From Gracilaria vermiculophylla (Eukaryota; Rhodophyta; Florideophyceae; Gracilariales; Gracilariaceae), in contig JAHNZQ020000308.1 in NCBI GenBank assembly GCA_019155205.2, forward strand, positions 406,690-454,773: DNA of 48,084 nt, written 5' to 3'. The translations under genes were made by a program, and so were the position numbers. The notes beneath the pieces were generated by a model. It ran no database searches, had not been told where the DNA came from, and saw only the letters and a program-made list of their open reading frames with translations. Positions within the stretch are counted from its first letter, which is position 1. Each line of letters opens with the position of its first letter. Of this stretch, positions 407 through 31,193 are shown piece by piece.

Positions 407-1195
407 ATGAAAGGCGCCCGGGATGTCGCGTCAGAAACGGCCAACCCTTCAAAGGGAACGGTTAACGAGAGCGACAAACGGCACCCCGTACTCGAAAGCC
501 TTGGGCCGAACGAGGGGAAGACGCAGGAGATTCCGGAAAAGCGCTGCGTGAACTACAACGAACCTCCCTCGTCAAGGGTCAAAACGTCCCATATGTCTCG
601 GATGAACAGGCCAGAGCCACGCGGACAACCCCTGCCACCATCAAGACTGGGGGAAGTTCGTCACCTCGCAGTGAGGGATGAGTACCGCGGAGTGCACGGT
701 CACCGCCCTTATCGGGATGTCTCGGAATTCGCCGCAGCCGCTATGCCCAGGCCGGGAGCGTCACCCGTGAGCGGGAACGCGCAGCCGCCGGGGCATCCGT
801 ATGGCACGCTTACGAATCCAATCCGGGAAGTGACACCCACGCATGTGGAACAGCCCACACAACCCGCACAGGGGATGTCAACCCGCAACCGGGAAACGCC
901 GCCGAAGCAGCGCTATGAATACGATGTACGCTCTGTAAGGAAAGCCGAGTGGGTTCACACGGTTCAGGGCGCCGCGTCCCGTGCATTCGCAATCCCTTCA
1001 CAGGGAGACTTTCGTTTTGGGGTGGTAACAACAACCCTGGAAGGCTGGAATGTCTACTCACAGGAGTACGTAGTGGAGAGCATCGTCGGCCACTCCTGGA
1101 ATCAAGACGGTATACTGCAGTACCGCGTACGTTGGTACGGCTACGCCCCAGAATGGGATACTCTCGAACCAATCGAGCACTTTCCCAGATCATAA
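407..1195 (+). CDS. Chromodomain ORF, probable pol-tail remnant or short two-ORF unit gene
   Basis: A 262-codon ORF opens at an ATG about 340 bp downstream of the TATA box in the LTR fragment at 1-178. Only the last ~45 residues are recognisable. They form a chromodomain core (YVVESIVGH, then YRVRWYGY, then DTLEPIEHFP) that closely matches the end of the E2 pol protein (VDHIVSHR, YRVRWYGY, EPPEHIP). Chromodomains at the end of Ty3/gypsy integrases direct integration by binding modified histones. The upstream ~215 residues are polar and rich in Pro, Arg and Gly, with no RT, RNase H or integrase motif. In-frame codons after the stop resemble the pol tail further (QYHRHA against RRYHAN), so the TAA may be secondary. 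It converges with the unrelated minus-strand ORF ending at 1376. It is either a decayed pol 3' end fused to other sequence or a real small gene. Confidence 0.55.
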   Translation: MKGARDVASETANPSKGTVNESDKRHPVLESLGPNEGKTQEIPEKRCVNYNEPPSSRVKTSHMSRMNRPEPRGQPLPPSRLGEVRHLAVRDEYRGVHGHRPYRDVSEFAAAAMPRPGASPVSGNAQPPGHPYGTLTNPIREVTPTHVEQPTQPAQGMSTRNRETPPKQRYEYDVRSVRKAEWVHTVQGAASRAFAIPSQGDFRFGVVTTTLEGWNVYSQEYVVESIVGHSWNQDGILQYRVRWYGYAPEWDTLEPIEHFPRS

Positions 1196-1375: not shown

Positions 1376-2725
1376 TTAACCACTGCCCCCAGGTGGGGAA
1401 GGACCCCCGCGAAAGCGGTTCGCGAGCGCATCATGCATCGCGGAGACGTCACCCCCCGCCTCGTGGGCACTCAAACCGGAATTGCAGAAGAACCTCGCGA
1501 TGATCTCGGCCTCGCCGGCACTGCTCGCGTTCGTGCCCGGCGCTGCCGCGCCCGTCGCGTGACCAGCCGAGCCGAGTCCAGCACCCCCTCCATGGGAGCC
1601 GACTGCTGTCGCAGACGTGCCCTTGCTGGGGACATTCGGCGGAACATTGCCCACCCCGGACGGGGAACGGCCACTAACACCGCCCGCGGAGGCGACATGC
1701 ATTGCATATGGCGCTTCACCACCCGAGTCGGAATCGTTATCTACCATGGGATCACCACTCAAATATGCCTGTTGGTAGTCGTCCGAATCGACGATCCCAA
1801 TGGGGTGCCCTTCGGGAATCCGGCGTGGCGCTTCGCGAAGATCTCTTGCCTCTGCGGCCGTCAGTTCTCTATACTCCCAGGGGTCGAAGAACACATAATC
1901 GCCCGCGAGTGCGGTATTGCGCCCGAGACCGGGACGTGAACCAGCGGCCGCTTGGTCACGCTTGCTCTGCGTTATGGGGACCTCACTCCAATCGACTCCG
2001 TCGATGAAATCGAGGAGAGTCAACAGCTCCTCGGCGTTCTCCTCGCCCTGAAGGGGAACACGCAGATCCAGACTTCGGACCGCCGCCCGTACTCGGGGAG
2101 GGGTATACCACAAGCGATATTGGTCGTACGCCTCAGAGAGGATATATGCCGCTACGCGGGCAGCCCACTCCGTGACCACCACGGACCATAACCCCGCGTG
2201 GGGATCCGTCATGAGATACGACCCCATATAGGTCAGCACCGGGGGAAGTTCGACGTAGCACCCGCGACAGACCTCTGACGCTGCCCACCAATCGGGGAGA
2301 GGTACATACCTACCGTGCCGGTGCGGAGCCGCGATGCGTTCGACTTCTACGTTTTGATATGGAACGAAGTACCCGAGTCGGGATCGCCAACGCCGTTCGA
2401 AACGGATGACGTGCTGCTGAAAGTTGTACCGATAGTCCCGTGAGAGATATCGGAACTCTGCCCGAAGAATCGGTCGATCCCAACATAGGGCTTCTTGCCG
2501 AGCGATCGGGATACGGCACCATGCGAATGTTTCCAACGCGGCTAAGCGCTCGCAGTACTCGACCTCCCCGCGTTTGCGGTACAACTCGATGTCAAACCGA
2601 AGGCCCGGAGGTATCGGCGTCTCAAACGGCGCGCGATTCTGCCGCTGATACGCGATGGTAACGAATGCCGTGTTGGAAAACAGATGAGCTATTTGCGCTA
2701 TACTCTCTTGTGACACAGGGCGCAC
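1376..2725 (-). CDS. Convergent ORF of unknown function (antisense-ORF family, form 1)
   Basis: An uninterrupted 449-codon frame with no known domain. It resembles the plus-strand ORF of E2 (8515-10605) in ordered motifs. GYF is followed by Tyr and Trp positions, then LMTDPHAGL (E2: VLDPHDSL), TEWA (TEFA) and AYIL (AYLQ), and then an acidic Tyr-rich stretch with DSDDYQQAY (GYDDGYAY). The C-terminal third is Gly/Ser/Ala-rich low complexity. It has no CCHC zinc finger and no protease, RT or integrase motif. The frame opens with GTG at 2725 just after a stop. An ATG about 19 nt upstream is in another frame, so a one-base indel or a splice may hide the true start. It runs toward the chromodomain ORF and ends 180 bp from it. 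A TATA box lies upstream at 2996-3002 in the flanking LTR. It could be the first ORF of an element starting from that LTR, or the antisense gene of a chromovirus remnant. Confidence 0.6.
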   Translation of the reverse strand: MRPVSQESIAQIAHLFSNTAFVTIAYQRQNRAPFETPIPPGLRFDIELYRKRGEVEYCERLAALETFAWCRIPIARQEALCWDRPILRAEFRYLSRDYRYNFQQHVIRFERRWRSRLGYFVPYQNVEVERIAAPHRHGRYVPLPDWWAASEVCRGCYVELPPVLTYMGSYLMTDPHAGLWSVVVTEWAARVAAYILSEAYDQYRLWYTPPRVRAAVRSLDLRVPLQGEENAEELLTLLDFIDGVDWSEVPITQSKRDQAAAGSRPGLGRNTALAGDYVFFDPWEYRELTAAEARDLREAPRRIPEGHPIGIVDSDDYQQAYLSGDPMVDNDSDSGGEAPYAMHVASAGGVSGRSPSGVGNVPPNVPSKGTSATAVGSHGGGAGLGSAGHATGAAAPGTNASSAGEAEIIARFFCNSGLSAHEAGGDVSAMHDALANRFRGGPSPPGGSG

Positions 2726-7445: not shown

Positions 7446-7450
7446 AGAAG

Positions 7451-8003
7451 TGTGGTACAGTCAGCCCTCCTCTCGAGGTAGTAAAGCACAACGTCCGTTA
7501 GGAGTTTTTGCTGACTCCAAAGGCGCGTATCCTTAAAGGTGGTCTCCGGTATCCGCTGTCGCGAGCCGGGGGAATTCTGAAAGGGGATCTGCACAAACCA
7601 AGCGGAGGGGGAGGTTCACTGGGCGGACAATGCTCCTAGAGGCGCTGCTATAATGCGACCTGGGGATCGGCGGCTTAGAAACCTGCGTAGATCGACAAGA
7701 GACTCCAACCGGAAAAGTAGAGGAAGACTCAAGGGTGCTCGTCTTTACTTCCCCAGAGGTGAAGCTCAACCGGCAGGTTAAGTATCAGGCCGGGAGCCCG
7801 CCTCGGCAGGTCTCCCTACTGTGCTAATTACCTGCAAAAGTTATCTAAAATAAATAATAATTCTACCGTACCTCAAGGATACTGTAGCGCACGCAGGCGA
7901 GATTATGCACCACGTGGCCCAGCTAATAAATTACGAACCCTCTTTAAGAATATTATGCCTTAAGGGCAAACCACCCTATTTCCGTAGGAGCCACTGGACT
8001 ACA
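7451..8003 (-). repeat. 3' LTR of E2
   Basis: The left LTR starts TGTGG on the plus strand and ends ACTACA, so it is bounded by TG and CA on either strand. It matches 16696-17248 over its full 553 bp with scattered substitutions. E3 carries the same LTR family at 17500-17721 and 24443-24997. Confidence 0.9.
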
Positions 8004-8016
8004 TACCCCCTTTCCT
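8004..8016 (-). other. Polypurine tract of E2
   Basis: On the minus strand AGGAAAGGGGGTA sits immediately before the 3' LTR, the required place for the plus-strand primer. The E3 counterpart just before 24443 is decayed (AGGAACGTGG). Confidence 0.8.
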
Positions 8017-8514
8017 AAATTACATCTCGTCTTCGAGGTGCATCTTCCGCTTTCTTGATCCCTAAGGTGGCTCCTATCGGTGTTGTGGCACGTGCGGCCT
8101 CCGGCGGTTTGCCCGTTCTCTCCTTCTGGCGTTCCTTCTCTTCTGCATACTCCCACGCGGCGTATTGCCACGGGCTCGCGTTTCACTCCTTGCGGCGTTC
8201 GTGGCTGAGCTCCTCCTTCACTCGGCTGCATCCGCTCCTTCTTGGTGTCACCCTTCGGTGCTGCTGCGCCAGTCGGCAGCGCGAGTATTCGCATTCTCCG
8301 GCGCGCCGCGCGCGGTGCAAGCGCGCAACGTCCGTGGACGGAGCATGGGTCAGTCCCGCGAGGATACCGACCCCCTGGTGGCGTTAGCCACTCTGACTCC
8401 TCCGAGGTTACTCCTTTTGGCAACACCCGCTTCTTCGCGTCCGCCCGTCCCATCTCCGTGAAGGCGCCGGACTCATAAGTTTCTCGTCCGCACCTCCGCC
8501 GTTCTCCGTTGGAT
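8017..8514. other. GC-rich leader between the E2 antisense ORF and the 3' LTR
   Basis: This 0.5-kb segment is pyrimidine-rich on the plus strand, and many overlapping frames stay open because of its GC content. No TATA box is visible on the plus strand. If the antisense ORF has its own promoter, it must lie here or in the LTR. Confidence 0.4.
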
Positions 8515-10605
8515 ATGAAGGCGCGCCCCGCGATGGTGCTCCATAACTCGCCCGATGCCGGTCGCCCGGCTTCGCCTCGGATTCCACTGTGGCGGCTCGA
8601 TACGGCTCCCTCCACGGTGGTGCATATGGCTTCGAATCGATCCCCGAGTGGTGTCAGGTCTCTCTCCTCATGTGCAACCACGCGTTCGGTCGCCATCCAC
8701 CCTGCTTCGTACACATTCGGAATGTCCTCTCCTACTCCGGCGCCGACATCCCCTTCAAATCCTGAGGTGTATCACACCTCGACCGGAGCACCGTTCCGTC
8801 CAGGAGAACACTTCGATCATCGCGCCACACGGGTGTTCGTTCCGTTCCACGATAGGCGCGTGAGTCTCCCGTGTCCCGTGGAGGATTTCATTCACCATTT
8901 CGGGCCGTACCTGCAGGCGTTGCGATTCCGCGCCGTCCCGGAGATTTCGTGGAACGACCAGAAGCGGAACCGCGTCGATGCATACCGCGCCCATTGGCTT
9001 CACACTCCAGTACATGGTTACAATGCTCCGAACACGGTCGGAAACTGCGACACTCCATATTTGAGGTGCGCTGAAGAACGGGAGATCCAGGCGCGACTCA
9101 AAGTACTGCTCCATAAGGAGAGCTCGTACCAGAGAGCGGGGCGAACGGGAAGCCTTGCCGATGGACGCTCCGCCCTTGCGGTGCTACCCTTCGATCCCCC
9201 AAACGACCGCCTGTACTGGATCAATCGGAATCAATGGGGGACGCATCTCACGGACGAAACTCACGTACGCACCGCATTCGGGTACTTCTACGGATGACAT
9301 AACACTAAATTCCATGATATGCCCTCCGGGCAACGTCCGAAGTACTACCTGAACGTGAACGACTCCTGGAGGGAACATTGGGTTTCCCTGTATCTCTGCG
9401 TGGCGACTCCCATAACCTTCGCGTATCATACCTCTGAGGTTCTGGATCCACATGACTCCCTAGGGCGGTTCGTCATGTTGGTCGCCTCGACGGAGTTTGC
9501 GGTCGGCACCCTGATGGCGTACCTCCAAGCGGCGGACGAAGGCGTAACTTCCTATACCCGATGCCGCAACGGCCGCCTCTACCGGGAGTCGTCGTATCAG
9601 CCGACCGCCGGGCGTTTGCTCCCCTCATCGGCGTCCATCATACGGGTCCTGCGCTCCTTCGGCATCCAAAACCTGGTTAAGGGAACCGCATGGAGCGAGT
9701 CCGAGGCGGAGATACTGTTGGATTACGACCTCCAGGTGGCGAGGAGTGACACACCGGGTTTCCTCTGGTACGACTACGGCGAGGACAAGTTTCACCCCAT
9801 TGTGAGGAGTCCAAATGGATACGATGACGGGTATGCATACCCTGCCTTTCCCCGTCTGTCGCCATATCGGGTTCCTCAGGTGCCACGGCTTCGAGTACTC
9901 GACTACGACCCTTTCATGGAGAGTCTGGCGTTTGATGCGCCCCGTCGGTTACCGGCTCCGTCCCAGGATATGGGCGCACCTCCGGAGGTGATAACTCCGC
10001 GACCCGCCCCGGAGCCGAGTGCTCCCGCAGTGGTCGCCGGCGTGTCTCCAACGGAAGAGGATGAGATTACTCCCGTCCCGGTACGTTCGGCCCCATTGGT
10101 GCAACCCCGATTGCGGAGCGTCCCTGCGCTGAGTACTCAGCCTCGCCTGCGGAGCGTTCCAGTTCCCGCGCCGGCGTCAACTCCGGCGTCACCGACTCCA
10201 CCCTTGGCATTGCCGTCCTCCACTGCGTAACACGCGGAATCCCGTCGGGGAGCTCCTGTCTCAGCTGGTCCGCCGTCTGCAGCTCCCTCCGTGGCGGTTG
10301 TTGCGCCATCAACGGAGGTGGCCGCATCTGGTGCACCGTCGGGAGGAGTCTCCTCTGAGGCTCTGGAGGCTGCCTTCCAGGAGTTGGTGCAGGCGTGCCT
10401 GGTGACAGGCAGTCCTGCTCCGGCTTCTCCTAAGGAGGCTCTGCGCGAGGCGCGTGCTTGGGTCTTAGAGCTCCATAAGGCCCGAACAGACCGAACCTCG
10501 ATGGCGGCCCTCAAGGACAGCCTGGCGGAGTTCTTTGACAGCCAAGCGCTAACAGCAAAAGCGCGCCTCGAAGCGGAGTATTCGACGCGGTTCGGTAACC
10601 TGTAG
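8515..10605 (+). pseudogene. Antisense ORF of E2, unknown family (two in-frame stops)
   Basis: Three consecutive plus-strand frames (to 9297, 9319-10230, 10291-10605) are in the same phase, separated only by a TGA at 9295-9297 and a TAA at 10228-10230. They therefore represent one gene of about 630-700 codons. The start is the ATG at 8515 or, more likely from composition, the one at 8722 (MSSPTPAPTSP). The middle part resembles the 1376-2725 protein: GYFYG, YYLNVNDSW, VLDPHDSL, TEFAVGTLMAYL and later GYDDGYAY. The C-terminal third is Pro/Ser/Ala-rich, ending in a charged helix (LTAKARLEAEYSTRFGNL) that recurs in E3. No known domain is visible. It lies between pol and the 3' LTR on the strand opposite pol and ends 240 bp from the pol stop. 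Some plant LTR elements carry antisense ORFs in this place, but I know of no family match. Confidence 0.65.
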
Positions 10606-10845
10606 GTGATAGGACCCAGACCAATAAACGATCCTTCGGATGGAGCAGAAACTCCACGAACGGTAGTTCAAACATGCATAAGCCGTGCCCGCGAGCTCAG
10701 CGACACAAAGTGCCGCCGTAAGAGCATGCGAAAAAGCGAGCACAGCATCCTGGAGGCGAAAAAGATAACTCCAAGGGGGGAAGACGACGAAGACGAAAAA
10801 CATGTCCGTTTGGGGGCCCCCTGCTCCTTTCCTAAACGAAAGCGC
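10606..10845. other. Convergent spacer between pol and the antisense ORF of E2
   Basis: The sequence separates two convergent stops. It is recognisably conserved in E3 (about 23879-24132): both contain GAGTT(A/T)TCTTTTTCGCCTCCAGG and a GCGGCGGCAC block in pol orientation. It may hold the processing signals of both transcripts. Confidence 0.5.
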
Positions 10846-13800
10846 CTATGTGGAGAGGCGTTTCCGCACCAGATTGGCGTGGTACCTCCTAAGGAAGTTC
10901 TTCGGGATATGTTCCGGAGGTTCTTCCGTGTCGTCTTTCGAGGTGTACCCATACCAGCGGACGCGGTACAGTACTCCTGCAGGGGTTGGTCGATGCGAGA
11001 CGATATGGTCCACCGCGTAGAGGATGTCACCTTCATGGGTCAGGATGGCATCGGGATCCTCCAGGATTGGTTCACCGAGAGCGGTGATGCGGTTCCCAGT
11101 ATCCCATGGAGTCGTCGCGCCTGAGGTGGTTGAATGAAGAATCTCCGCTCGTTGTCCCTGAGGTGGGGTGGCGGGCATTCCTGGAAGGCTGGGCGTTGGG
11201 ACTTTCGTCACCCTATCACGGGAGACGACATCCCTGAGCCCGTTCACCTCAATGGCGACAGTATCTCTATAGGTGGCAAGGACTTTGAAGGGCCTTGAGG
11301 TTGTCGGCGATACCTTGCGCGTGATGTCCGGCGGTTCGTCGGAGTTTTCCTCGGGTTTATCGAGGAACACCTCGTCGCCTTCCTTCAGGTGAGGACCTTC
11401 CATAACCTTTCGGTCGAAGTCCTGTTTGTATCTTCTCTGCGAGGCGTTGAGCCTCTCCTTCGCGAGGGAGAGTGCGTTCTCATATCGCCTTAGGATGGAG
11501 CATTTGGCTTGCGCCGCTGTTGGCGTCTGTGGCCCATCCGCCGGATGCGCCGTGGCACGTACCGCAATGACAGCACTTGGCGGAATGCGCGAGAGCACAA
11601 AATTGAAAGGAGCAGTCCCCGTGGAGCGGTGCACCTGTAGGTTGTATACATACCTGAGGGGTCCCACATATGCGTCCCAATCCTTCTGGTGGTCCACGAC
11701 GTAGTGCTTCAGCCTCGAGGCGATGGTTTTGTTGAACCTTTCCGCCTGGCCGTTTGTCTGGGGATGATAGGCAGTTGTAAACAACTGCTTCATTCCCAGC
11801 ATTCCGGAGACGGCGCTGAAGAGTTTCGCCTGGAACTGGGGGCCATTGTCCGTAAAGAGGTATAACGGTGTCCCGTAGGGATAAACCCAATGCTCCAGAA
11901 AGGCGTCGGCAATCACTGCTGCAGTGCTGCTCCGGAGGGGGATGGCACGCGTGATCTTGGAAAAGCGATCCGTGATCACGAGGATAAATCGATGCCCTCG
12001 CTCCGTGTTGGGGAGAGGATCCAAGATGTCCATAGCCACAAACTCCAACGGTTCTGAAGGTGGGAACATCGTGAGCGGTGTCCGGTGTCTCCGTATACTC
12101 CCCCTAGCGGCGGCACAGGAATAGCAACCCGCCACTGTTTGGAAGGCGTCGTTAGCCATGTTCGGCCAATAGAACGCCCTCCGCATGGGGAAATACATCA
12201 GAGATCTACCGGGGTGCCCGGCGAGACGAGGATTGTGCGAGAGATACAACACTCTCGCCCGTAGCGTCGTCGGCACCACCTTTTGGAGAGCTCCATCCAG
12301 GGGGGCGCGGCGTACAAGCACGCCGTCTCGGTCAACGTCGAATGACGATGTAAAACTCCCCACAGTGGCGAGGCACTCCTTGCAGTACGCATCCGTACTC
12401 TGCTCCTTCAGAAACTCCGCTACGGTAATGGGGAGAACTTCTTTCTCCTCCTCGACAAGAGCCATCACCTCAGGGAGTCCACTGTACTTTCCTCCAGGTT
12501 CACAGCATTCCAAACAATCTCCATCGGATCCTTCTTTTCTGTCGGTGTCATGGATGACCAGACACGGGATGGTGTCCTCCAAAGGTGTTTTATCTTCCCC
12601 ACTGGTGGAGATTCGTGAGAGCGCGTCCGCTGCCTGGTGTTTGAGGCCAGGGCGGTGGACGATGTCATACTCGAACTCCAGGTGGCGTAACCTCCACCTT
12701 TCCAGGCGACCGGAAGCATCCGTCAAGGACAGTATCCACTTCAATGGTGCGTGGTCCGTCCTCAAGGTGAAGCGCGAGCCTTCCAGGTATGGGCGTAAAA
12801 GCAACACCGCCCACACGATGGCGAGACATTCGCGCTCCGAGGTGGAATAATTCCGTTCCGTAGGGGTGAGGTTGCGACTCCGATACCCGATGGGTTGAAG
12901 TCCACCTTCAGGTTGTTCCTCTAGGAGGGCACATCCGACCTGGTATTTACAGGCGTCAGTGTCCAGCACCATTCGGCCGTGCCGCTTCGCCAATACCAAG
13001 ATTGATGGTTCTATCAGTCTCCTCTTCAGGGTGTCGAAGGCTACAAACTCCTCTTCCGTCAGGAGAGCCAATTGCGTCGGCTTTTCCTTCTCCAAGAGGC
13101 AATTTAACGGCGCCACTATACGGGAGAAATTGGGTACAAACCTCCGGAAGACGTTACACAACCCAAGGAAGGAGCGGAGCTCCGTCTGGTTTGGGGGAGG
13201 GCGAGCTTCCGTAATGGCGTCCTGAGTTTTCCTAGAAACCTGTAGGCGGCTCAGGAGCACAATGTGCCCCAGGTAGTCCACCGACGACTTGAAAAAGAAA
13301 CATATCTCCAGTTTTAAGGTGAGGCCAGCATCCTTAAGGAGTTGGAGCACGTGCTTCACATAAATGAAGTGCTCCTCCACGCTGCGGAAGTATATGATGA
13401 CGTCATCGATATAAACCAAGGCGTACTGCCACTTCACCTTTGACAGGATAATGTCCACCGCTCTTTGGAACGTAGCGGGTGCATTCTTCGATCCAAATGG
13501 CATCCTTAGGAATCGGAAGATCCCACAGTGCGAGGTGAACGTTGTCTTGTACTTATCGGAGTCGTCCATCTCAATCTGCCAGTAGCCGCTATTGGCATCC
13601 AGCGCGGAGAAGACGGACGCATGGCCGAAGGAGTCGATACACTCATCCATCCGGGGTATCGGGTACGAATCGCGTACCGTCACCTCGTTAAGGCGCCTGT
13701 AGTCGATACAGAACCTTTAGGAGCCATCTTTCTTCTTGACAAACACCACCGGGGAGGCCATTTTGGAATTGGAAGGCTCTATAACGCCCTTCTCCAGCAT

Positions 13801-15006
13801 CCGGTGGACCTCATTGCGTTCAAAGTCGCGCGCGTGGGGTCCGGCCCTCCTCGGGAGTTGATGTACCGGCTTCGCATCCGGTGTGAGCTGGATCCTGTGC
13901 TTGGCCAGGCTGTCCGGACCCAGGTGACCAGTCCACATATCCTCAAATTCGGATAGCATCTCCACTGTCCTATGGCGATACCCTTCGAAATCATCGCCAA
14001 TTTGGAGCTTCTCCTGCCAGGTCGCAGGATTCTCTTCCTCTGGAGCCGTTGAAGTCGCTTCCATCTCCACGGTGGCGATAGCATCGCGGTCCGCAAGGTC
14101 TTCCGCTCGTAAAAGGTGAGCCAGTCCTGCAGGGGCGGGTAGTGCCAGCCCGACGACAGTTCCTTTCTGGAGCCGTAACGGCAACTTCTTCAGGTTAGCG
14201 AGCACAACCCGAAAGGGGATGTTCGGTATTACTTCCATAACACCGTTCGCCATCATGGAGTCCTGCTTTGTCGTCAGGTGTGGACTCCCCTGTAGAAATG
14301 AAAGGCCAGATGCAGAGGTCTGCACCAAGACTTCGGCCTGACTCCTCGCGGGTATTTCGATGCTCTTCACCACGCGGAGCTTATTCGACTGCGTCTCCTT
14401 CGGAAGGGTACCCACTTGACGCGTGTTCGCGTCCGGTCCGGGAGATGCGGACACAATACCTACAGGGGCAGCGTCATGAAACGTCACCTTCCGCAGGCGT
14501 GGGTAGAATGCACGTACATATCGATCCACGAAGGAAGTGCCCTATATGCATTGTGCGGCCAAGTTGGTCGCCACGAGGAACCATATTTTCACCTGTAAAG
14601 AGCCCAACCGGAGGTACAAGGGGACTGCGCCGAAGATGGTCAGTGCTCGTCACGACGCATCGCGTACCGTCCGGAGCTTGCCAGTCCTCAAGGAGCCGAG
14701 AGCAGACCGCGGGAACACGTCGGCGTGCACCAGATTGGGGCCAGCTCCGGTATCAAGGATAGCGCGCACCGTGGTGGAGGCGAGCGGGGAACATCCTATA
14801 GAGGCGAAGACATTGTAATTCTCACGGCGGAGCGTGCAAACAGAATCCTCAAAGGAGTCGAATGGGTCCAACGGGATTGGGGGGCCCGCCGATTCTGTAT
14901 CGACGGAGCAGACGGCTTCTCCCTCTTTCCTAAAGGCGACCTCCGTAGAGCTGAGGCTCGATGTTGGAGAGCCACGCGGAGCCTCTACGCGTGGCTCTGG
15001 GGGTTT
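10846..15006 (-). pseudogene. E2 pol: protease, RT, RNase H, integrase, chromodomain
   Basis: All pieces are in one phase, broken by TGA 14650-14652, TAG 14542-14544 and TAA 13717-13719. The protease active site is ILDTGAGPN, upstream of the first stop. The remaining positions are counted in the last open block, from 13683. RT has YIDD at residues 91-94. RNase H has DTDA at 241, TSERECLAIVWA near 281 and TDHAPLKW near 309. Integrase has an H-x6-H...C-x2-C zinc site (483, 490, 520, 523) and catalytic D552, D612, E648 with 35 residues between the last two. A chromodomain follows at about 888-935. Pol lies in the -1 phase relative to the end of gag. Apart from the stops it is nearly complete, and those stops could be mutations or sequencing errors. 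Confidence 0.85.
15000..15006 (-). promoter_or_regulatory. Candidate -1 frameshift site between gag and pol of E2
   Basis: In gag phase the codons GAA AAC CCC give the heptamer A-AAC-CCC, of X-XXY-YYZ form, five codons before the gag stop. E3 has A-AAC-CCT at the same place (20128-20134), and both have pol in the -1 phase. This heptamer is not among the strongest known slip sites, so the call is tentative. Confidence 0.3.
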
Positions 15007-15188
15007 TCCTGGTTGGAGAGGGGCTGGTTTCCAGGCGCGGACGGCTGCTGCGGTTGTGCAGTGTGATGCGCCGTGTTCCCTGGAGGTGCAACCGGCTGGG
15101 ACACCGGCACTTGCGTTGCGGGTGCCAGTGACAGCGGGACAGGCTGCACTCCTGGTGGAGCACGGTAACCGTAGTTTCCTTGAGGGGA

Positions 15189-15288
15189 NNNNNNNNNNNN
15201 NNNNNNNNNNNNNNNNNNNNNNNNNNNNNNNNNNNNNNNNNNNNNNNNNNNNNNNNNNNNNNNNNNNNNNNNNNNNNNNNNNNNNNNN
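15189..15288. other. Assembly gap of 100 N inside E2 gag
   Basis: Exactly 100 unknown bases, a conventional gap size, so true length and reading phase across it are undefined. The missing part would cover the middle to late gag. Confidence 0.95.
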
Positions 15289-16539
15289 GTAGAACTGAAA
15301 GCACCAGACGGCGGCACCTTCATGGACACCATTGGTGTTACACGCCGAACGGAAGCGCGTGAGAAAATTCAACACCGAGATGGGGTCTTCGCCTGAGAAG
15401 GAGTGCTTCTTCATTAGAGTATCCACACGGCGCTGCATCTTCGTGAGTCATTTAGCAACCGACGCGTCGTAGATTGTGGAGCGATCATTTAACCTGTAGG
15501 TGTCGTAATCCACCACTTTGGCGAAGAGGTCATTAAGCGGGACGACCTTTCTGACCCTTCTGCTCTTCTCCTTGGGAGGTATACTGTCCTCCGAGCTGGA
15601 GCTGTTTACGGATTCGGAGTCTGTGCTTCTCTCCGAATTGGTGTCTTGCTTTCTTCTTTTCTCCCTCGGTTTCTTTCTTCTTCTTTCCTTGAGGTGGTCT
15701 GGGTTGCTGACGATACCCCCGTTATCGCGATCCACCCGAGGAGTATCCTGTCCTTCTCTCCTTAGGTGAACTTCGTCGCGACCGGTATCTTGTCCTCCTC
15801 CGCGGGGAGTCAGGTCCAAACGGTGCATAGAAAGATTCTTGAGGTGGTCCCGTTTCCCTACGGCAGTATCCTTTCTTCCTCTGGCGTAGAAGGTGGCAGT
15901 ATCCTTTCTTTCTCTGCCCGTGGTCACCTTAGGTGTTGATAGAGGGAACCTCTCCTGTACGGATGAATAACTTTGAAACGCCGCTGCGGGGAGCAGCTGC
16001 GCGGTTTGGGAGCGAACCTCCGCACGGATAACATATGAGATCACCTTGAGGAAAGGATCGGAATCCAGCAAAGCATCCACAGCACGGTGAGCGCTCTCCG
16101 ATGCGATGTCCTACACAAGGGCGTGGCGGCGCGCTCCGAAGTGGACTTCAACACCTGCAGGATTTCTTTCGACCAGCTCTTGTGAGAGCCAATCCGTAAG
16201 GCGCGGGGCCAGGGACTCCAAATGGGTGTTAGCCTCCGGGTGTTCCCGTCCCTGCAGCTCCTGAGGTGGAGGCTGCGATGCCGTGTGCGGTGCTTCAACC
16301 TTCACATCGGCGTTCTTCAGAGGTGCTGTGGGGGATTCCGCTTGCCTCCGATCACGCATTCTCCTAAGGCGATTCCTGAAACGATGCACAGAGTAGCCAG
16401 GATTCCAAAGGAGACTTTCAGGGTCCTCCAGTGTTGCGGCCATCTCCTGGGGAACGCTGCGCGTGCTGCACCCACCGACGGAGCCGGTTGCTTGAGTATC
16501 CTGTAGGGGGGTTTCCATGGGATGTTCTGAGGGGTCCAT

Positions 16540-16695
16540 AGGAGAGTAGGTCGGGGGTAATTTGCTTCCACTTCCGAATCACCTTATGGAAGGATTCCAC
16601 TGTTGGGGGTTGGTCGTTGCAAACTAGAAACACGGTTCTGCTGCGACTTGTGCGAATTATTTAGGAACTGTGACCTTCTCAGTCGGGAGACCAGT
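16540..16695 (-). other. E2 leader with primer-binding site at 16684-16693
   Basis: After the 5' LTR and a 2-base spacer the minus strand reads TGGTCTCCCG. E3 has TGGTCTCCC at the same place (17724-17732). The complement ends GGGAGACCA, like the 3' end of eukaryotic tRNA-Tyr as I recall it from yeast. Only 9-10 bases are shared, so the primer identity is a suggestion. Confidence 0.6.
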
Positions 16696-17248
16696 TGTGG
16701 TACTGTCAGCCCTCCTCTCCAGGTAGTAAAGCACAACGTCCGTTTGGAGTTTTTGCTGACTCCAAAGGCGCATATTCCTAAAGGTGGTCTCCGGTATCCG
16801 CTGTCACGAGCCGGGGGAATTCTGAAAGAGGATCCGCAAACACCAAGCGGAGGGGGAGGTTCACTGGGCGGACAATGCTCCTAGAGGCGCTGCTATAATG
16901 CGACCTGGGGATCGGCGGCTTAGAAACCTGCGTAGATCGACAAGAGACTCCAACCGGAAAAGTAGAGGAAGACTCACAGGTGCTCGTCTTTACTTCCCCA
17001 GAGGGGAAGCTCAACCGGCAGGTTAAGTATCAGGCCGGGAGCCCGCCTCGGCAGGTCTCCCTACTGTGCTAATTACCTGCAAAAGTTATCTAAAATAAAT
17101 AATAATTCTACCGTACCTCAAGGATACTGTAGCGCACACGGGCGAGATTATGCACTACGTGGCCCAGCTAATAAACTACGAACCCTCCTTAAGAATATTA
17201 TACCTTAAGACCAAACCACCCTATTTCCGTAGGAGCCACTGTACTACA
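16696..17248 (-). repeat. 5' LTR of E2
   Basis: It is the same length as the left LTR and is bounded by TG and CA. It is followed on the right by the target duplication AGAAG at 17249-17253. On the minus strand it runs directly into the primer-binding site. Confidence 0.9.
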
Positions 17249-17253
17249 AGAAG

Positions 17254-17499: not shown

Positions 17500-17721
17500 C
17501 CGCCGATCCCTAGGTCGCCGCATAGTAGCGCCTGTAGAAACATTTTGCGCCCAGTGAACTTCCTAATCCGATTGGATCTTTCCGACCCGCTTGCAGGACT
17601 CCCCCGGCTCGTGACCGTGGTTACCGGAGACCAACTTGAGGAACTCGTGCCTTTGGAGTCACGAAAACTCCAAATGGACGTTCTGCGCTACCACCTCCAA
17701 AAGAGAACTGCAGGTACCACA
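17500..17721 (+). repeat. Truncated 5' LTR of E3
   Basis: From CGCCGATCC to GGTACCACA it aligns with the last ~220 bp of the E2 LTR read on the minus strand, including GAATT/GACTCCCCCGGCTCGTGA-like and GGAGACCA blocks. It is followed after two bases by the primer-binding site TGGTCTCCC at 17724-17732. Confidence 0.75.
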
Positions 17722-17876
17722 ACTGGTCTCCCAACTTCGAAGTCTAATTTTCTAAAAGAATCACAAGAGTCACAACAGAAAAGTGTTATTAATTTGCAAC
17801 GATTGGCACGCAACAGAGGAATTATTCATTAAGAGGATACGGAAGTGGAAGGAAGTCACCCCCAACCTACTCCTAT

Positions 17877-20149
17877 ATGGACCCCATGGAACCCTCAATG
17901 GAAACCCCCCTGCAGGACCATCGGGCAATCGACTTCGTCGGTAGGCGCAGCACTTACAGAGCTCTTCAGGAGACTGTCGTCAGAATGGAGGACCTTGAAA
18001 GTGTCCTTACCAACTATGTCTCCCATGTGGATCGTTTCAGGAATCGCCTTAGGAGAGTGCAAAATCGGAGGCAAGCGGAACACCCTGAGACACCTCTGGA
18101 AAATATCAACGTGAAGGTTGAAGAACCGCACACAGTATCACAGCCGCTACCTCAGGAGCTGCAGGGACGAGAACATCCGGATGCTAGCTCCCTCTTGGAG
18201 TGCCTAGACCAACATCTTACGGATCTGCTTTCTCAGGAGCTGGTCGAACGAATCCCTGTAGGTCTCGAGGCACATTTTGGAGCGCGCCACCACTCCCTTG
18301 TGGAAAAGATTGCATCAGAGAGAGCTCATGTTACCATGGATGGCTTGCTGCATTCGGAACCCTTCCTGAAGGTGATCTCAGATACTATCTGTGCCGAGGC
18401 TCGTTCCCAAACTGCGCAACCGCTCGCCATAGCGGCGTTTTAAAGTCATCATTCTGTACAAGTGAGGTACTCTCTATTAAACCCTATGGTTATCTTGGGC
18501 AGTGAAGGACCGGATTTGGCCGGCCTCTACGCCATAGGAGGAAAGAATACTGCCGTAGGAAAATGGTAACACCTCAGGAATACTTCTATGAATTATCTGG
18601 ACCTGTCACCCCACGCAGGAGGACGGGAGACCGGTCGCGAAGTACTCCACCCAAGGAGAAAAGGACAGGATACTCCTGGGGTGGATCGGGATCATGGGGG
18701 TATCGTCGGTAACCCAGACCACATAAAGGAAAGATGCGGAAAGAAAGGGAGGGAGAAAAGAAGAAAGCGAGACACCAATTCGCAGAGAAGCTCAGACTCC
18801 GAATCTGTAAACAAATCCGGCTCGGAGGGCGGTATACCTCTTTAGGAGAAGAGCAGAAGGGTCAGAAAGGACAAAATGCATAACGACCTCTTCGCAAAAG
18901 TGGTTGATTATGACACCAACCGGTTCAATGATCCCTCCACTCTTTACGACGCGTCGGTCGCTATACGACTCACGAAGATTCAGCGCCGCATGGATATTCG
19001 AATGAAGAAGCACTCCATCTCAGGTGAAGACCCTATTTCGGTGTTGAATTTTTAACGCGCTTCCGATCGGCGTGAATTATCAATCGTGTTCATGAAGGTG
19101 CCGCCGTATGGTGCTTTTATTTCTAGCTCACAGGTCAAGCGCACTCGCTGGTGCAGCCGCGCCTCACGGAAGAGCGCACCATTGTGGATGATCCTGGAAG
19201 GGGGATGTTGACGACGTACCCCAAGGTGGTGAATTTCCTCCTTAAAAGATACGCAACGCATGAGGTAACAGCCGATGCTGATGCTGAATTCACCTCCTAA
19301 AGGCAGGGTGCAGGAATGACCGACACGAAATTTTCACAAAAGATACGGATGAAGGCCTTACGGTGTGGGAAAGTGTACTCCAAATCGGGGCCAAAGTCGT
19401 GGTTTCCAAAAGGACTCCTTCCTCCCCTCCACGCCAGGGTCCGACATCACTTGACAACGCACCCAAAAACAACATATATGGAGCTAGCACATATCGCGGA
19501 AGCCTATGAGGATACTCATAGTGCCACTCGCCGCAGCCACGGTTCACTTTCGGACAAACAGACGGCCGCAAGGAACCGTTATACATCCGCCTCAACGTTG
19601 GACTCCAGCACCTCAGGTGAGGTCGACAAGCTCACGCTCGAAGGAGAGCAAGAGGCCCTCCCTCTTACATTCGCCTCATTTTAGGTAGCACCTTCTATGA
19701 CGAGGACACTCTCGTCTCCTAAGTTTTTCGCCTCGGCAGGATCGTACAGCAGTGTCCTACTCGCGAACCCTCGAGGCTACCCACCGTTTTGCAGGACTTG
19801 CTTAACTCGAGAGTCAGTACACTGTACTACTCTCACCCCGGCATTAAGGGCTGCCATCCTGCAGGAACGGGGGAAGCATTCCCACAACCTGAAAGACACA
19901 CCAATGGAGGGTGGAAGTTATCAAGCCGCGTATCACGATATTTGCTCCCCTCAATGAAACTACGGTTACCGCGCTCCAGTTGGAATGCAGCCTTTTCCAC
20001 TTTCACTTGCGCCGACAGCGCAAGGGCCAGCATCAAAACAGGCTGCACCTTAGAAGAACACGTCGAATCCCAATGCGCAACCACAGCAGCCGTTCCCCAC
20101 TGCACCTCATATCCCCTCCAACGATTAAAACCCTCAGGGTCATGCATAG
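17877..20149 (+). pseudogene. E3 gag, degraded
   Basis: An intact N-terminal block of 188 codons starts at the ATG at 17877 (MDPMEPSMETPLQD) and matches E2 gag (HRFRNRLRR against DRFRNRLRR, then PQELQGREHP in both). The frame then breaks several times. Recognisable later parts are the charged segment near 18650-18830, MKKHSISGEDPISVLNF near 19000, and the Pro/Gln-rich tail (NAQPQQPFP) ending at TAG 20147-20149, at the same point as in E2. It cannot give a full-length product. Confidence 0.75.
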
Positions 20150-23100
20150 GGGCTCTGCGTGGCTCCTTTCCGTCAACCCACGGCCCAACAGAGGTCTTCT
20201 AGGAAAGGGGAGAAGCCATTTGCATGGTTGATGCAAAATCGGCGGACCCCCCAATCCATTTGGACGCATTCGAAACCTTTAAGGACTCTGTTTGCACGCT
20301 CCGCCGGGAGAATTATAAGATTTTTATCTCTATAAGATGTTCGTCAGTCGTCCCCACAATGGTGGGCGCTATCGTCGATACCGAAGCGGGCCCCAATCTG
20401 AAGCACGCCGACGTGCTCCCGCGGTCTGCTCTCGGCTCCTTGAAACCTGGCAAGCTCTCTTCGGTGCGAGACTTGTCGCGTCGAGCATTTAACATCATCG
20501 GCGCATTTCTTTTGTATCTCCGGCTGGTCTCCTTACAGATAAGGGTGTGGATCGTCGTGATGACCAACTTGGCAGCACAATACATCACGTGCAATATACC
20601 CACGCGTGTGCTAGGGGAAGTTTCACGACGCCGCTTCTGTAGGTATCGAGTCTGCATCTCCGGGACCGGACGCCAATAAACGTCAATTGGATAATCTTTC
20701 AAAAGAGACGCAATCTACTAAGCTCCGGGTGGTGAAGAGTATCAAAATACCGGCGGGGAGTCAGGCCGAAGTTTGGGTACAGACCTGTGCATCCGGCCAT
20801 TCATTAATACAAGGGAGTCTGAATTTGACGAATAAGCAGAACTCCATGATGGCAAATGGCGTTATGTAGATAATGCCGATTGTCCTCTTGAGGGTCGTTC
20901 ATGCCAATCTGAAGGAGTCATCTTTGCGGCTTCAAAAAGGATTTGTCGTCGGATTGGCCATACCCGCCCCAGCAAAACTTGCTCATCTTCTGCATATGGA
21001 AAACCTTGCTGAGCGCGATGCAATTGCCACCATGGAAGCCAAAGCGGCAACGACGACTACAGAGGATGGAAAGCCTGCCACATGGCAGGAGAAGCTCCAA
21101 ATTGGCGAGTGTTTTAAATCTATAGCCCTAGGATAGTGAAGATGCTATCCGCCTTCGAGGACATGTTGGCTGGTCGCCTTAGACAGGTGAGCCTGGCCAA
21201 GCACCAGATCCTACTGAAACCAAAGACAGAAGTGGTACACCAAATCCCGAGAAGAGCCGGGCCCCATGCGCGTGTATTTGAACGCGATGAGGTCCAGTGG
21301 GTGTTGGATAAGGGCGTTGAGGAGCCCCCCAATTTCGAATGAGCCTCACCAGTGGTGTTCACGAATAAGAAAGATGGCTCCTTGAGGTTCTACATTAGCT
21401 ATAGACGCCTCAGCGAGGTGATGGTACGGGGTTCGTACCCCATACCCCGTATGAAGGAATGTATTGACTGCTTAGGTTGAGTGTCCATTTTATCCACGCT
21501 GGACGCCTACAGTGGCAACGAACCAGGAGAAGTTCCGCTCATTCCCGGGGTTCTATAATGTCTTTCGGAGGTTTGTCTCTAATTTCTCCCGTATTACGAA
21601 GCCGTTGTATCGCCTCTTGGAGAAAGATAAAACAACGCAATGGGTCTCTTTGACAGGCGAAGAGTTCGAAGCCTTTCACACCTTGAAAAGGAAACGAATG
21701 GAGCCAGCGATCTTGGTCCTTTCTAAGCAGAACGGCCGAATGGTGCTGGACACAGATGCCTGTAAATATCAGTTCTGATTTGCCCTCTCACAGGAACAAA
21801 CTAAAGATGGAAATCAACCTATTGGATACTGGAGTCGCAGCCACCCACCGACGGAACGGAAATATTCCACCTCGGAGCGCGAGGGCCATGCCATTGTATG
21901 GGCGGTCTTGCTTTTTTGCCCATACATGGAAGGCGCGCAGTTCACCTCGAGGATGGACCATGCACCACTGAAGTGGATACTGTACTTGACGAATGCTTCC
22001 GGAATCCTAGAGAGGGGGGGACTATACCTCCTTAAGTACGGGTTTGACGTGAGCCAGCGCACTGGGATAGTAACCAGGTGGCGGACGCTCTGTCGCGTAT
22101 TTCCAACGATGGAGAATTCAAAACCCCGTTAGAGGACACTATTCCGTGTTTAGTCATCGAGAACGCCGACAGTAGAGAAGGCTTCGAAAAAGAATGCTTG
22201 GAATGCTGTGAACCTAAAGGTATGTTTTGTGGACTGCCGGAGGTGATGGCTCTCGACGGGGCGGAGAATAGGGTTCTTCCCATGACCATGTCGGAGTTCC
22301 CGAAGAAGCATAGAACGGATGTGTACTGCCAGGAGTGCCTTCCTACCTTGGGGAGTCTAATATCTTCATTCTAAGTCGATCAAGACGGTGTAATTGTATG
22401 CTGCGATCCCCCGGACGGTGCTCTCCATAAAGTGGTGCCGACGAGCCTACACGCGAGGATACTGTATCTCTCGCAGTACTCTCGCGTTGCCGGGCGTTTC
22501 GGTGGATGGCGCATGTATTGTACCACGAGAAGAGAGTTTTTTTGGCAGCATATGGCTAGTAAGGCCTTCCAAACGGTGGCGGACTGCCACTCGTGCGCCG
22601 CTACTAGGGGTAATATCCGCAAACACTGAACCCCGCTTATCCTGTTCCCGCCCTCAAGACTTTTGTAGTTCGTGGCCATGGATATTTTGGGGCTTCTCTC
22701 CATGTCGGAGAAAAAATACCGATTTATCATCGTGATCACCGATCGGTTCTCGACGATCACTAGCGCCTTTACCCTCCTGAGCACCACTGCAGCAGTAATT
22801 GCCGACGCCTTAATAGAGAACTCCGTTTACCCATATGGGATCCCGTTCTATCTCCTCACGGACAACGGAACCCAGTTCGCGGCGAAGCTATTCAGCGTCA
22901 TCTCCGGAATGCTGGGGATGAAGCAGTTGTTTACAACTGCCTATAACCCCCAGACCAACAGACAGGCGGAGAGGTTTAACAAAACCCTCGTCTCAAAGTT
23001 GAAGCACTACGTCACGGACCACCAGAAGGATTGGGACGCATATGTGGGCCCGCTCACGTATGCATACAACTTGCAGTTGCACCGCTCTACGGGTACCGTT

Positions 23101-23878
23101 CCTTTCAATCTGGTGCTTTCGCGCGTCCCACCTAGTGCCGTTATCGTAGCTTGAGCCACGGCGCACCGGACGGGTGGGCCACAGGCACCAACAATGGCTC
23201 AAGAAAAGCGCTCCATTTTAAGGCTCTATGATGACGCAACCTCCCTCGCAATGGAGAGACTCAACGACTCGCAGAGTAGATATAAACGGCATTATCACCA
23301 GAAAATGAAAGAAGGCCCTCACCTGAAGGAAGCCGACGAGATTTTTCTCGACAAACCTTGGGAGACATTTGATGAACCACCGGATGTCACGCACAAGTTA
23401 GCTCCAAGCACCTCAGGGCCTTACAAAGTCCTTGAAACCTACAAAGACACCGTCGCCATCGAGGTAAAAGGGTTCCGAGACGTCGTCTTATGCGATGAGG
23501 TAACGAAAGTCCCAACGCCCAGCCTTTCGGGAACGGCCGCCACCTCACCTCAGTGGCCACCCGTGGATATTTTTTCTCCAACCATCTCAAAAGCAACGAA
23601 ACCGATGGATACGGTAAGTCCCATCACACCTCTCGGTGAACCTTTGATGGAAGCCCTAGACGCCATCATGGCCACTCAAGGTGATATCCTTCATGCGGTG
23701 GACCATATTGTCTCTCACAGGCAGACCCCTGCAGGACTACTGTACCGCGTTTGACGGTACGGTTTCACCTCAACGGTGGACACGAAGGAACCCCCGGAAC
23801 GCATTCCGGAGAATTTCTTCAGTGAAAACACACCAACCTGGAGCAAAAACGCATTTCCACATAGGCGTTTCCGTTTAG
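20128..23878 (+). pseudogene. E3 pol, degraded and lacking the RT core
   Basis: The protease motif is changed to IVDTEAGPN near 20370 (Gly to Glu next to the catalytic Asp). The sequence up to YRRLSEVMVRGSYPIP (about 21400-21440) matches E2. After LDAYSG (about 21510) it jumps to the segment matching NQTELRSFLG of E2, a loss of roughly 130 codons that includes YIDD. RNase H (DTDACKYQF followed by a stop), the integrase zinc site (with CHSCAA), the core (MDILG, LTDNGTQF, RQAERFNKT, all three acidic residues kept) and the chromodomain follow in broken frames. It is inactive. Confidence 0.85.
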
Positions 23879-24132
23879 AAAAAGGGGAAAGGTCCCAAAA
23901 CGGAGTTGGTTCTCGTTCTCCGCTATCTCCTCCTCACCTGGAGTTTTCTTTTTCGCCTCCAGGCCGCCGTTGCACGCTTATCGTGCGCTTATGCGGCGGC
24001 ACCTCTTGTCGCTGGGCGCTCGGGCACGGCCAACGAGTACTGCAATCACTCGTCAAATAGCCGCTGCGCCACCTCATGGGTATTTTACTCTGTCACTACG
24101 TGGGATCAATTTCGTCGCCGGCTTTCCCACAC

Positions 24133-24381
24133 CTACAGGTCACCAAACCGCGTCGCATACTCCGCTTCCAGACGAGGCTTTGCTGTTAGCGCATGGCTCT
24201 CAGAGAACACCGTCACGGTCTCTTTGATGGCAGCCATCGATGCTCGGTCCGCACGGGCCTGATGGTCGTCGCCACACAGAGGTGCGGTGAGACCCAATGG
24301 TCCCTGCAGGAGTCCCACTATACAAAACGGTGTGTGGCATAGTGGGAAGACCGTTATGGCGTCAACGCCAATAGGATCCAC
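24133..24381 (-). pseudogene. Tail of the antisense ORF in E3
   Basis: The last ~40 codons match the end of the E2 antisense ORF almost residue for residue (ARADRASMAAIKET against ARTDRTSMAALKDS, then LEAEYATRFGDL against LEAEYSTRFGNL). It lies at the same place, just after pol and on the opposite strand. The ~600 codons that should lie toward the 3' LTR are deleted, since the LTR starts at 24443. Confidence 0.75.
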
Positions 24382-24442
24382 TTATGGATCGATATGTAAG
24401 AAGATACACCTCAGGGACGTGGTACAACTCAGGAACGTGGTG

Positions 24443-24997
24443 TGTTGTACAACGGATCCTAACTTGAATTTGCCCTGTGGCGTCACGACGAAATATTGCT
24501 ATGAATGGTTCGTACATTTTTAAATGCGCCTTGTCGTGCATTATTCGGCCCACTAGTGCTTCAGTACTTCTGAAAATTTGTAGAATTTAGATTTGTATTC
24601 GTTAATTGATGCAGGCAGCTATTACAGTATCGAGACCTGTCAAGGCGGGCTCCCGGCACGGGATTTAATCCGCCAGTCGCGCTCTATTTCTCATAAAAGA
24701 AAACCAAGCACCCTTGCGTTTTCTTCTACATTTTCTGGTTAGAGACTCTTGTCGAACAGCTTCAGGTTTCTAAGCTGCCAATCCTAAGGTCGGCCCATAG
24801 CAGCGCCTGTAAGAGCATTGTCCACCCAGTGCATCCTTCTCTTCGCTTGATGCTCGAGAACCCCTTTTCAGGATTCTTTCGGCTCGTGACCCTGATTACT
24901 GGAGACCGCATTTAGGTACTCGCGCTTTTGGAGTCACCAAAAACTCCGAACGGACTTTTTGTGGTACCACCTCTAAAGGTGAACTGAAGGTAATATA
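24443..24997 (+). repeat. 3' LTR of E3
   Basis: It starts TGTTGTAC, like the E2 LTR start TGTAGTAC on its own strand, and aligns through GGGCTCCCGGC, GAGACTCTTGTCGA, CAGGTTTCTAAGC and CTCCGAACGGAC to about 24997. The final CCACA of the family has become ATATA. At 555 bp it is nearly the E2 length. Confidence 0.8.
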
Positions 24998-26663: not shown

Positions 26664-28334
26664 CTATTTGACCGCAGAATCTTGATGCAACATTTTCACC
26701 ATGTACGGACCTTCCAGATGGTAGCCGAGTTTGCGATAATAATGACGAGTACCAACCCCTGAGATGACAATCATTTTCGATGAGCCATGTTCCACGCGAG
26801 CAATGCGTTCAGCTTCCTCCATGAGTAAAGAGCCGAACCCCTTGTGCTGAAACTTTGCAGGGTCTCGTTCGTGCACTGGCACTACTGATCCGTATACATG
26901 AAGCTCTCGAACAATACTGCTAGGGGCATTTTTCATTTCCGGGCGCACAGCTTTTGCAGCGGCTCCGGGGCGTCTTAAACGCAGCAGGGCGACGAGAATG
27001 TCCTGAGCGGCATCCTCGTACGAGAGAAATGTTTCCCAGCCGTCATTGGCGACGTAGTCGCGACGAATCAATTCGACATGTTGAGGATTGATCTGGAAAT
27101 GTATGGTTTGTATTCCGACCTCGCGAGTTCGCACGTCTCTGCACGGGAGGCCCAGGTCAGCCATTCGTGCCAGAGCAAGTTCGCGCAAATTTCCATGCTC
27201 AACGCCTGAGGACACAAGTGGCATGGGAATATCACGTTGTATGCGGTAGACGCGCACCCAAGGGGGTACTAGCGCCAGTATGCGCGCGACCAAATCTATG
27301 AGCTCAGACGGGGAATAGTTTTTATAGAGACCGTTTTTCCACAGTTCATACAACCCAGTTCCCCGGATGACAAGAGTGGGGTAAATCTTGAGCCCGTCCG
27401 GGCGGAATGCCGGGTTTTCAAACAACTCCTTGAAGGACTCCATGTCCCTCTCCTTGCCCATATTGGGCAAATCAGGCATCATGTGGGATACGACCTTGAA
27501 GCCGGCGTCTTTGGCGAGGCGAAAACAGTCACACACGGCCTGAACGGAGTGGCCTCTGTTGGTGTCTCTGGCGACATCTTCGTACACGCTCTGGACGCCG
27601 ATCTCCAGGCGTGTGCAGCCGTACTCGAGCATGGCGGAAAGGTGGTGCGGAGAGGAGTGATCCGGGCGGCTTTCGATGGTCAATGCGACGCACTTTGCGT
27701 GAGAATGCTCGGAATAGCGCACGGCTTCGAGGACGTCCTTAGAAGAGTGGCCGCTAAGGGCGTCGTGCAGATTGCGGATGAAATAATCTCTGTAGGCGTG
27801 GTCGAGGGACATGAAGGTGCCGCCCATGAGGATGAACTCGACCTTGTCGACATTGTGGCCGAGGCTTTGCAGCTGGTCGACCCTGGAGCGAACCTGAACG
27901 TAAGGGTCATAGCGGGCGCGGATGGCGCGCATGGAGGTGGGCTCGTAACCGGTGTAGCTCTGGGTGGAGTACTCAAAGTCGCTGTCCGGGCCGCCCGGGC
28001 AGTACACGCAGATGTTGCCTGTGGTGGCGATGTGCGGGCAGCGGTGGGGCTTGGACATGACGGCGACGACGGCAATGCCGCTAGCAGTGCGCACGGGTTT
28101 GGCCTTGAGCAGCGGGGCCAGTCGCTGGCGGTGGGACGGTGGGACGGCAGCTAGAATGTCGACTTGCTTTGGGTAGTGGGTGAGGCGGTGGCGCTTGGCG
28201 GCGGCGGCCTTGAGGGCTGCGATGGAGGGGGTTTGGCTGAGATCGGTGTGGCGGATGAGTTGAGCGACGATGTCGGCGATGGCGGCCTTATCGGCGGCGC
28301 CGTGGTGCAGCACCGCGTCGTTGGAGCGACTCAT
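26664..28334 (-). CDS. ELP3: Elongator complex catalytic subunit ELP3
   Basis: A 556-residue protein, the usual length of eukaryotic ELP3. Elongator modifies wobble uridine (U34) of tRNAs to carboxymethyl-type forms. The N-terminal radical-SAM half has the Fe-S cysteines in [15 protein letters not shown] (C99, C109, C112, a C-x9-C-x2-C pattern), then [19 protein letters not shown] and [12 protein letters not shown]. The C-terminal half is a GNAT-type acetyltransferase fold with the acetyl-CoA loop QHKGFG and a Tyr-rich end ([17 protein letters not shown]). I chose the ATG at 28334 because the family homology starts there. The frame stays open upstream to 28685, but that part is GC-repeat translation (poly-Pro). 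It is divergent from the zinc-knuckle gene across a 562-bp shared region. Confidence 0.97.
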
Positions 28335-28516
28335 GGCGGCTGAGGGGAAGCGGTGGGGCGCATGGCGAGCGCGCGTGGGGGCGCACCGACGCGCTCCTAA
28401 CGAGCAAGCACCGCGCGGTGCACTCAAAGGCAGGGAGGAGGTAGGCGCATACAGCGCGCACACGTGGTAATGTGACGCGAAAACGCGCGTGCGCCATTGC
28501 ACCACGCGCGCCGTCT

Positions 28517-28557
<41 letters not shown>

Positions 28558-28896
28558 TGAGGCGGCGGCGGCGGCGTTGGCGGCATGCGTATAAAAAACA
28601 GCAACAGGCACGTAGGGAAGCGATCTGGCGCAGTTGCGGGCGGCTGCTGACGTCTGAGGCACGGGGAAGATCTTGCGACTGGCAAGTGGGCAGTGACTCG
28701 TTACGCGGCAGCGTGCACCACGCTGGCGATCGGGCGCAAGCGCGCAAATCGACGCGGCGGGCAACGCGCACTGTCAAGCGCGCGCGCAGCGGTGCAGTGG
28801 CGCAGCGGCGCAGCGGCCTCAAAAAGCGCGACGGTGGACTGGGCGCTCGCGGCGGAACATTGAAGCACGCGCCACGCGCAGCTGACAGTTGGTGGC
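28335..28896. promoter_or_regulatory. Shared upstream region of ELP3 and the zinc-knuckle gene, with a GGC repeat
   Basis: The region is very GC-rich and separates two divergent starts. An uninterrupted run of about 13 GGC triplets lies at 28519-28557 and a second shorter run at about 28561-28577. No TATA box is evident. Several long frames are open here only because of composition. Confidence 0.55.
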
Positions 28897-28912
28897 ATGG
28901 CACCCCAAACGC

Positions 28913-28949
<37 letters not shown>

Positions 28950-29646: not shown

Positions 29647-29879
29647 CGCCCGCGCGCGCGCGCGCGCGCACGCCCCACGTCGAATTACACCCAGTCAACG
29701 AAATTGCTTCGCAATTCAGCGCGCCGTGTAAACATCGCAAGCAAACGCCGCTTCAGCTTCCATCATGGACCGCATCCCCCACGCCCATGCTTTGCTGCCG
29801 CTGCGCGCGACGCACGCGCCCACGCCCCTGTCCTCCCATGTTCTTAACCGCCGCCGCCGCCCTACGACTTCGTCACCCA

Positions 29880-29881
<2 letters not shown>

Positions 29882-29946: not shown

Positions 29947-29966
29947 TTTCCCCGCCCCCTCCAGAA

Positions 29967-31162: not shown

Positions 31163-31193
<31 letters not shown>

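Follow-up and report, generated by a model that had tools for sequence, protein, structure and literature searches.

The window, a stretch of 48,084 nucleotides of Gracilaria vermiculophylla DNA, contains an LTR retrotransposon (E2, 7451-17248, minus strand) in which a long reading frame runs on the strand opposite to pol. We asked whether this antisense frame (aORF) is a gene of the element and what its product might do. E2 is a chromovirus, a Ty3/gypsy element with a chromodomain, in which LTRs, a target-site duplication, RT, RNase H, integrase and a C-terminal chromodomain are all present (Table 1). The two LTRs differ at 23 of 553 positions, and the 5-bp duplication is perfect on both flanks. 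The purine-rich motif adjoining the 3' LTR is presumably the polypurine tract.

Table 1. Coordinates in the window of E2 and of the related elements E1 and E3.
Feature	Position	Strand	Basis or remark
E1 pol tail with chromodomain, convergent to E1 aORF	407..1195	+	Pfam
E1 aORF fragment, N-terminal part missing	1376..2670	-	DNA and protein comparison with other copies
Target-site duplication AGAAG, left of E2	7446..7450		
3' LTR of E2	7451..8003	-	553 bp, TGT...ACA
Putative polypurine tract, adjoins 3' LTR of E2	8004..8015	-	element strand GGAAAGGGGGTA; seen in sequence
aORF of E2, antisense accessory frame, two internal stops	8515..10605	+	alternative start ATG 8722
pol of E2: RT, RNase H, integrase, C-terminal chromodomain	10846..13683	-	Pfam
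pol of E2, upstream part	13717..14529	-	no Pfam match; 31% to the same place in an E1-type element
gag region of E2, by position	14650..16080	-	two frames, partly masked N, no Pfam match
5' LTR of E2	16696..17248	-	LTR comparison
Target-site duplication AGAAG, right of E2	17249..17253		
aORF tail remnant in E3	~24136..24264	-	43 aa, 65%, E 3e-15

The aORF sits between the pol stop and the 3' LTR. As the original prediction had it, three plus-strand frames fall in one phase, which extends over 8503-10605 and is interrupted by just two stops (9295 and 10228), giving a frame of ~630-700 codons. Both stops are rare among 30 aligned copies, being present in two and one of them, respectively, with the window included. 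An in-frame ATG is found at 8515 in 26/30 copies and at 8722 in 24/30, and the terminal stop at 10603 is kept in 25/30 (TAG in 24, TGA in one). The frame had also been described as convergent with pol and lying opposite to it; convergence was borne out, but the stops at 10605 and 10846 are ~240 bp apart and the two frames do not overlap, so that the aORF does not face pol coding sequence.

The arrangement is not confined to the window. Within the genome searched (44.8 Mb in 27 contigs) there are at least 132 matches to the middle piece of the E2 aORF, at least 146 to its N piece and at least 95 to the E1 protein, all lower bounds, with 130 of 686, 146 of 616 and 94 of 431 first-look candidates, respectively, having been scored. 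A convergent pol adjoins the aORF in 26 of the 29 E2 loci inspected, and a convergent chromodomain is found in all ten E1-type loci inspected, that of the window among them; an antisense ORF is thus present in other family members. Starting from pol, for which 134 of 1120 candidates were scored, 33 of the best 60 of these 134 matches have a convergent aORF match within 6 kb, and some of the other 27 may carry an unscored aORF. Random placement (1000 rounds, with assumed sizes for contigs C12 and C22) gave 0.9 on average and never more than 5. An antisense frame between pol and the 3' LTR in many copies is the arrangement termed aORF-3R, known from Grande, RIRE2 and Retand, and supports the view that the aORF is an accessory gene resident at this place.

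The frame is under selection. Across 30 aligned E2 copies (the window and loci L010-L038), the median pairwise dN/dS in the aORF frame is 0.378 over 8503-10608 and 0.344 from 8722 on (435 pairs), with 0.627 upstream of 8722. Since the loci were selected by similarity to the middle piece of the aORF, that piece is biased and may favour low dN/dS, yet among the thirds from 8722 on (0.244, 0.276 and 0.508) the lowest value still belongs to the N-terminal one, outside the selection query. The other frames of this DNA give 1.12 and 1.26 on the plus strand and 0.985, 0.441 and 1.28 on the minus strand (four of the five range from 0.985 to 1.283); the minus frame at 0.441 shares its wobble position with the aORF and has 600 stops, whereas the aORF frame has 112. 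Within the pol part of these copies, dN/dS is 0.452 (354 pairs) in the frame chosen as the one with a median of 1 stop per copy, and 1.05-1.07 in the other two frames of its strand (medians of 7 and 11 stops). Similar behaviour is seen in the E1 type (8 copies), where the aORF frame has a dN/dS of 0.542, the other frames of its strand 0.98 and 1.17, and the pol-strand frames 0.90, 0.58 (the wobble-sharing frame, 0.581) and 1.10; stops number 0-4 in the aORF frame versus 7-24 in other frames. Given a dN/dS of 0.34, lower than that of pol (0.45) and than the ~1 of most other frames, and given that stops are avoided, the aORF is almost certainly a real protein gene under selection, as had been argued from its conservation.

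The relative of this protein in E1 turned out to be less complete than predicted. The 1376-2725 protein had been called intact, but DNA similarity to the compared copies ends at 2669-2670 in four of four cases, and a 687-codon frame in another copy is matched by the protein only from residue 244 onwards. In one E1-type copy, which was read in pieces, aORF and pol are enclosed between terminal direct repeats (393 aligned bases, 92%). Pol is just 44% identical over 601 residues between E1-type and E2 elements, and the two families are therefore well separated. BLAST gave no significant match between the E1 and E2 aORF proteins (best E 1.8 and 0.5). Profile-profile comparison did detect similarity: three profile pairs gave probabilities of 39.7% (E 3e-4), 31.4% (E 5e-4) and 47.0% (E 2e-4), and all 30 E2 copies gave a probability of 79.9% (E 1.4e-5) and a score of 51.5, compared with 13.8-22.2 in six decoy comparisons, of which the pol decoy is an out-of-frame translation and serves as a decoy only. 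For another, earlier pair of profiles the score was 40.0, whereas 150 column shuffles reached at most 26.8 and a single reversed profile 30.4. The best alignment covers ~145 columns, and its motifs (GYF - N.E - Y - P...Y - DP - TE.A - AY) come in much the order originally described. Judged by these profiles, the E1 and E2 aORF proteins are homologous. The aORF tail also recurs in E3, as first noticed. E3 (17500-24733), which adjoins E2, is related to it but inverted and more decayed, with pieces at 70-84% identity; most of its aORF is gone and the tail is left.

By sequence, the aORF protein has an N-tail of low complexity followed by a conserved core. Next come an acidic stretch and a linker rich in Pro and Ala, and the C-terminal tail is again conserved. 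No Pfam family was matched beyond chance by four window pieces (three of E2 and the E1 protein, E up to 1), 14 E2-type members or 15 E1-type members (E up to 0.1), the best values being 0.039 in one of the 14 E2-type members and, with the E1 protein of the window, 0.18. A search of the PDB found no relative, and no fold match was found; the structure models are poor, and no fold therefore backs a regulatory role. Outside the genome, a search with the E2-type protein gave no homologue, and the E1 type has homologues in Gracilariopsis chorda, Agarophyton chilense and further assemblies (5 + 6 matches, 8 distinct proteins). Agarophyton belongs to the Gracilariaceae (Rhodophyta), as does Gracilariopsis. 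The initial statement that no homologous family could be recognised consequently holds for Pfam, but uncharacterised homologues do exist in these two species. Like the 1376-2725 protein, the eight homologues (P0001-P0008) are strikingly poor in lysine; together the eight have 15 K versus 271 R and 104 N. In seven E1-type frames K/(K+N) is 0.21, E/(E+D) and Q/(Q+H) are 0.49-0.50, and K/(K+N) is 0.37-0.61 in the other five frames of E1-type DNA. This poverty is specific to lysine and to the E1 type, being absent from the E2 type, and would fit avoidance of ubiquitin tagging.

Elements with a defective aORF have multiplied. We read ten pol copies, namely ten of the first eleven among the 27 lacking a scored aORF match, and eight of them share an internal aORF deletion of one of two types. 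The first (six copies: L054, L055, L081, L083, L084 and L085) has its left end at 8617-8678 and its right end at 9873-9875 in window coordinates; the second (L056 and L082) runs from 8828 or 8805 to 9960 or 9957. L083 has, in addition, a piece matching window 9181-9471 beyond the LTR, taken as a neighbouring copy. The remaining two copies comprise one with a bigger loss (7800 to 10450) and one that is masked. Because junctions are common to different loci, each deletion is suggested to have arisen once and then been copied. Core-less elements have thus spread, and the aORF product is therefore either supplied to them in trans or dispensable. The tail that they retain has a pooled pN/pS of 0.62 in the first type and 0.65 in all eight, with 0-2 stops, compared with 0.57 in full copies (one of 38 rows, L021, was left out for too little sequence). 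Such a bias in core-deleted copies is unexpected if the whole protein alone matters. Among the 24 of 30 copies that passed a coverage filter, aORF distances are not significantly correlated with pol distances (r 0.24, p 0.11), and the two parts therefore seem to recombine between copies; aORF distances do correlate with those of the upstream region (r 0.52, p 0.005). As a side observation, the distance pattern across window 7819-11727 suggests template switching between copies.

Overall, we favour a reading in which at least two chromovirus families carry the aORF as a resident accessory gene, encoded between pol and the 3' LTR on the strand opposite to gag-pol, whose product is most likely a trans-acting nuclear regulator of the element's life cycle; this reading is on balance probable. 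Expression of the gene would require a separate antisense transcript that begins upstream of the aORF, either within the 3' LTR or in the ~500-700 bp gap separating LTR and ATG. Its product would be a soluble protein that acts in trans on the life cycle of the element, and action in trans is itself rather probable. The protein may be located in the nucleus and act on transcription, RNA handling or integration, although we put a regulator in this narrow sense at slightly under an even chance. Among the roles considered, control of transposition in trans fits best; as a counter-point, the core-deleted copies may mean that the aORF is dispensable.

Other roles can be weighed against the same data. 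The protein could be a structural or packaging helper, such as a second capsid or a chaperone-like protein, provided in trans to core-deleted copies. Trans supply would fit the two deletion lineages, and a low-confidence model has short C-terminal helices, but aORF proteins match no capsid or nucleocapsid family in Pfam, zinc knuckles included, and have no PDB relative, and we regard this role as unlikely. To a similar degree we doubt a silencing suppressor or anti-host-defence protein: fast divergence speaks for it, the aORF being barely alignable between families whose pol is 44% identical, and the lack of any Pfam domain against it. It is less probable still that the antisense RNA is the functional product, acting either as dsRNA or by interfering with the pol transcript. 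The 3' ends of the convergent transcripts could overlap, and such RNA roles are named in PMC7264820, but selection here tracks codons. An env-like protein, as had first been proposed, or a movement protein, used for leaving or entering cells, is very improbable: env-like genes typically occupy this place between pol and 3' LTR (PMC7264820, in part), but the aORF is on the opposite strand and five proteins lack any trans-membrane stretch by hydropathy (peak mean over 19-residue windows, 1.65). That the aORF is a chance frame, or a passenger captured once and now decaying, is barely credible, for although the window copies are broken and 27/30 copies have 1-6 stops between 8722 and 10602, frame-specific selection in two families, homologues in other species and a constant place contradict it.

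Returning to the trans-acting accessory gene, several known systems resemble it in part. The Chlamydomonas element REM1 is, like E2, a Ty3/gypsy element of an alga with a gene in inverse orientation; its product, ORF3p, carries a PHD finger and a chromodomain, neither of which was found in aORF proteins with Pfam. HBZ of HTLV-1 is likewise encoded antisense; it is a short bZIP protein, whereas the aORF has 600-700 codons and no bZIP match in Pfam, and the nuclear regulatory product that is a feature of HBZ would be shared by the aORF under our reading. HBZ and related antisense retroviral genes are named in the consulted parts of PMC11963269 and PMC7264820. According to the same excerpts, plant Grande, RIRE2 and Retand elements carry antisense ORFs, some with nuclear products, for which a regulatory function is proposed (PMC7264820, PMC11963269); the aORF is like them in its place, opposite strand, many copies and proposed regulatory role. 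Grande gene23 is reported to have a dedicated promoter upstream and a product located in the nucleus, both features of Grande. Unlike E2 with its chromodomain, Retand belongs to a non-chromovirus lineage, and its antisense ORFs carry TRP28 (PF04195), which is reported to be restricted to flowering plants. TRP28 was unmatched in the three E2 window pieces, the E1 window protein and the 14 and 15 members, and we therefore file the aORF as the same kind of gene but a separate protein family. It is best read as a new family that would be analogous to the antisense proteins of Grande and Retand, relatedness to them not being detected.

In the literature excerpts consulted, antisense accessory genes belong to elements of flowering plants and to a small number of retroviruses; a weak search, covering open-licence papers and the openings of abstracts, found none in a red algal or chromodomain element. 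Here, frame-specific selection acts on an antisense gene of chromodomain elements with red algal homologues, no Pfam match and more than 100 genomic matches. Since one 45 Mb genome harbours both full and core-deleted lineages, it offers a natural test of whether such proteins act in trans. More tentatively, and with the odds against it, the aORF proteins may form an old red-algal chromovirus family, unrelated to described ones, of antisense-encoded trans regulators, with the core-shedding deletion lineages as cheaters. If true, antisense regulators would have been acquired independently in red algal and land plant elements.

The remainder of the window holds host-type genes: ELP3 (26664-28685), a KH-domain protein with three KH stretches (32483-34906), peroxin-3 (40207-41307) and a Kelch and cytochrome b561 protein (42050-44437). 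The region 28001-33000 is GC-rich (63-73%); long C runs and GCN-type repeats occur in it, and both of its strands carry overlapping frames. A protein at 46038-46754 matches the PMP22/claudin family (E 4e-12), which is unexpected in an alga.
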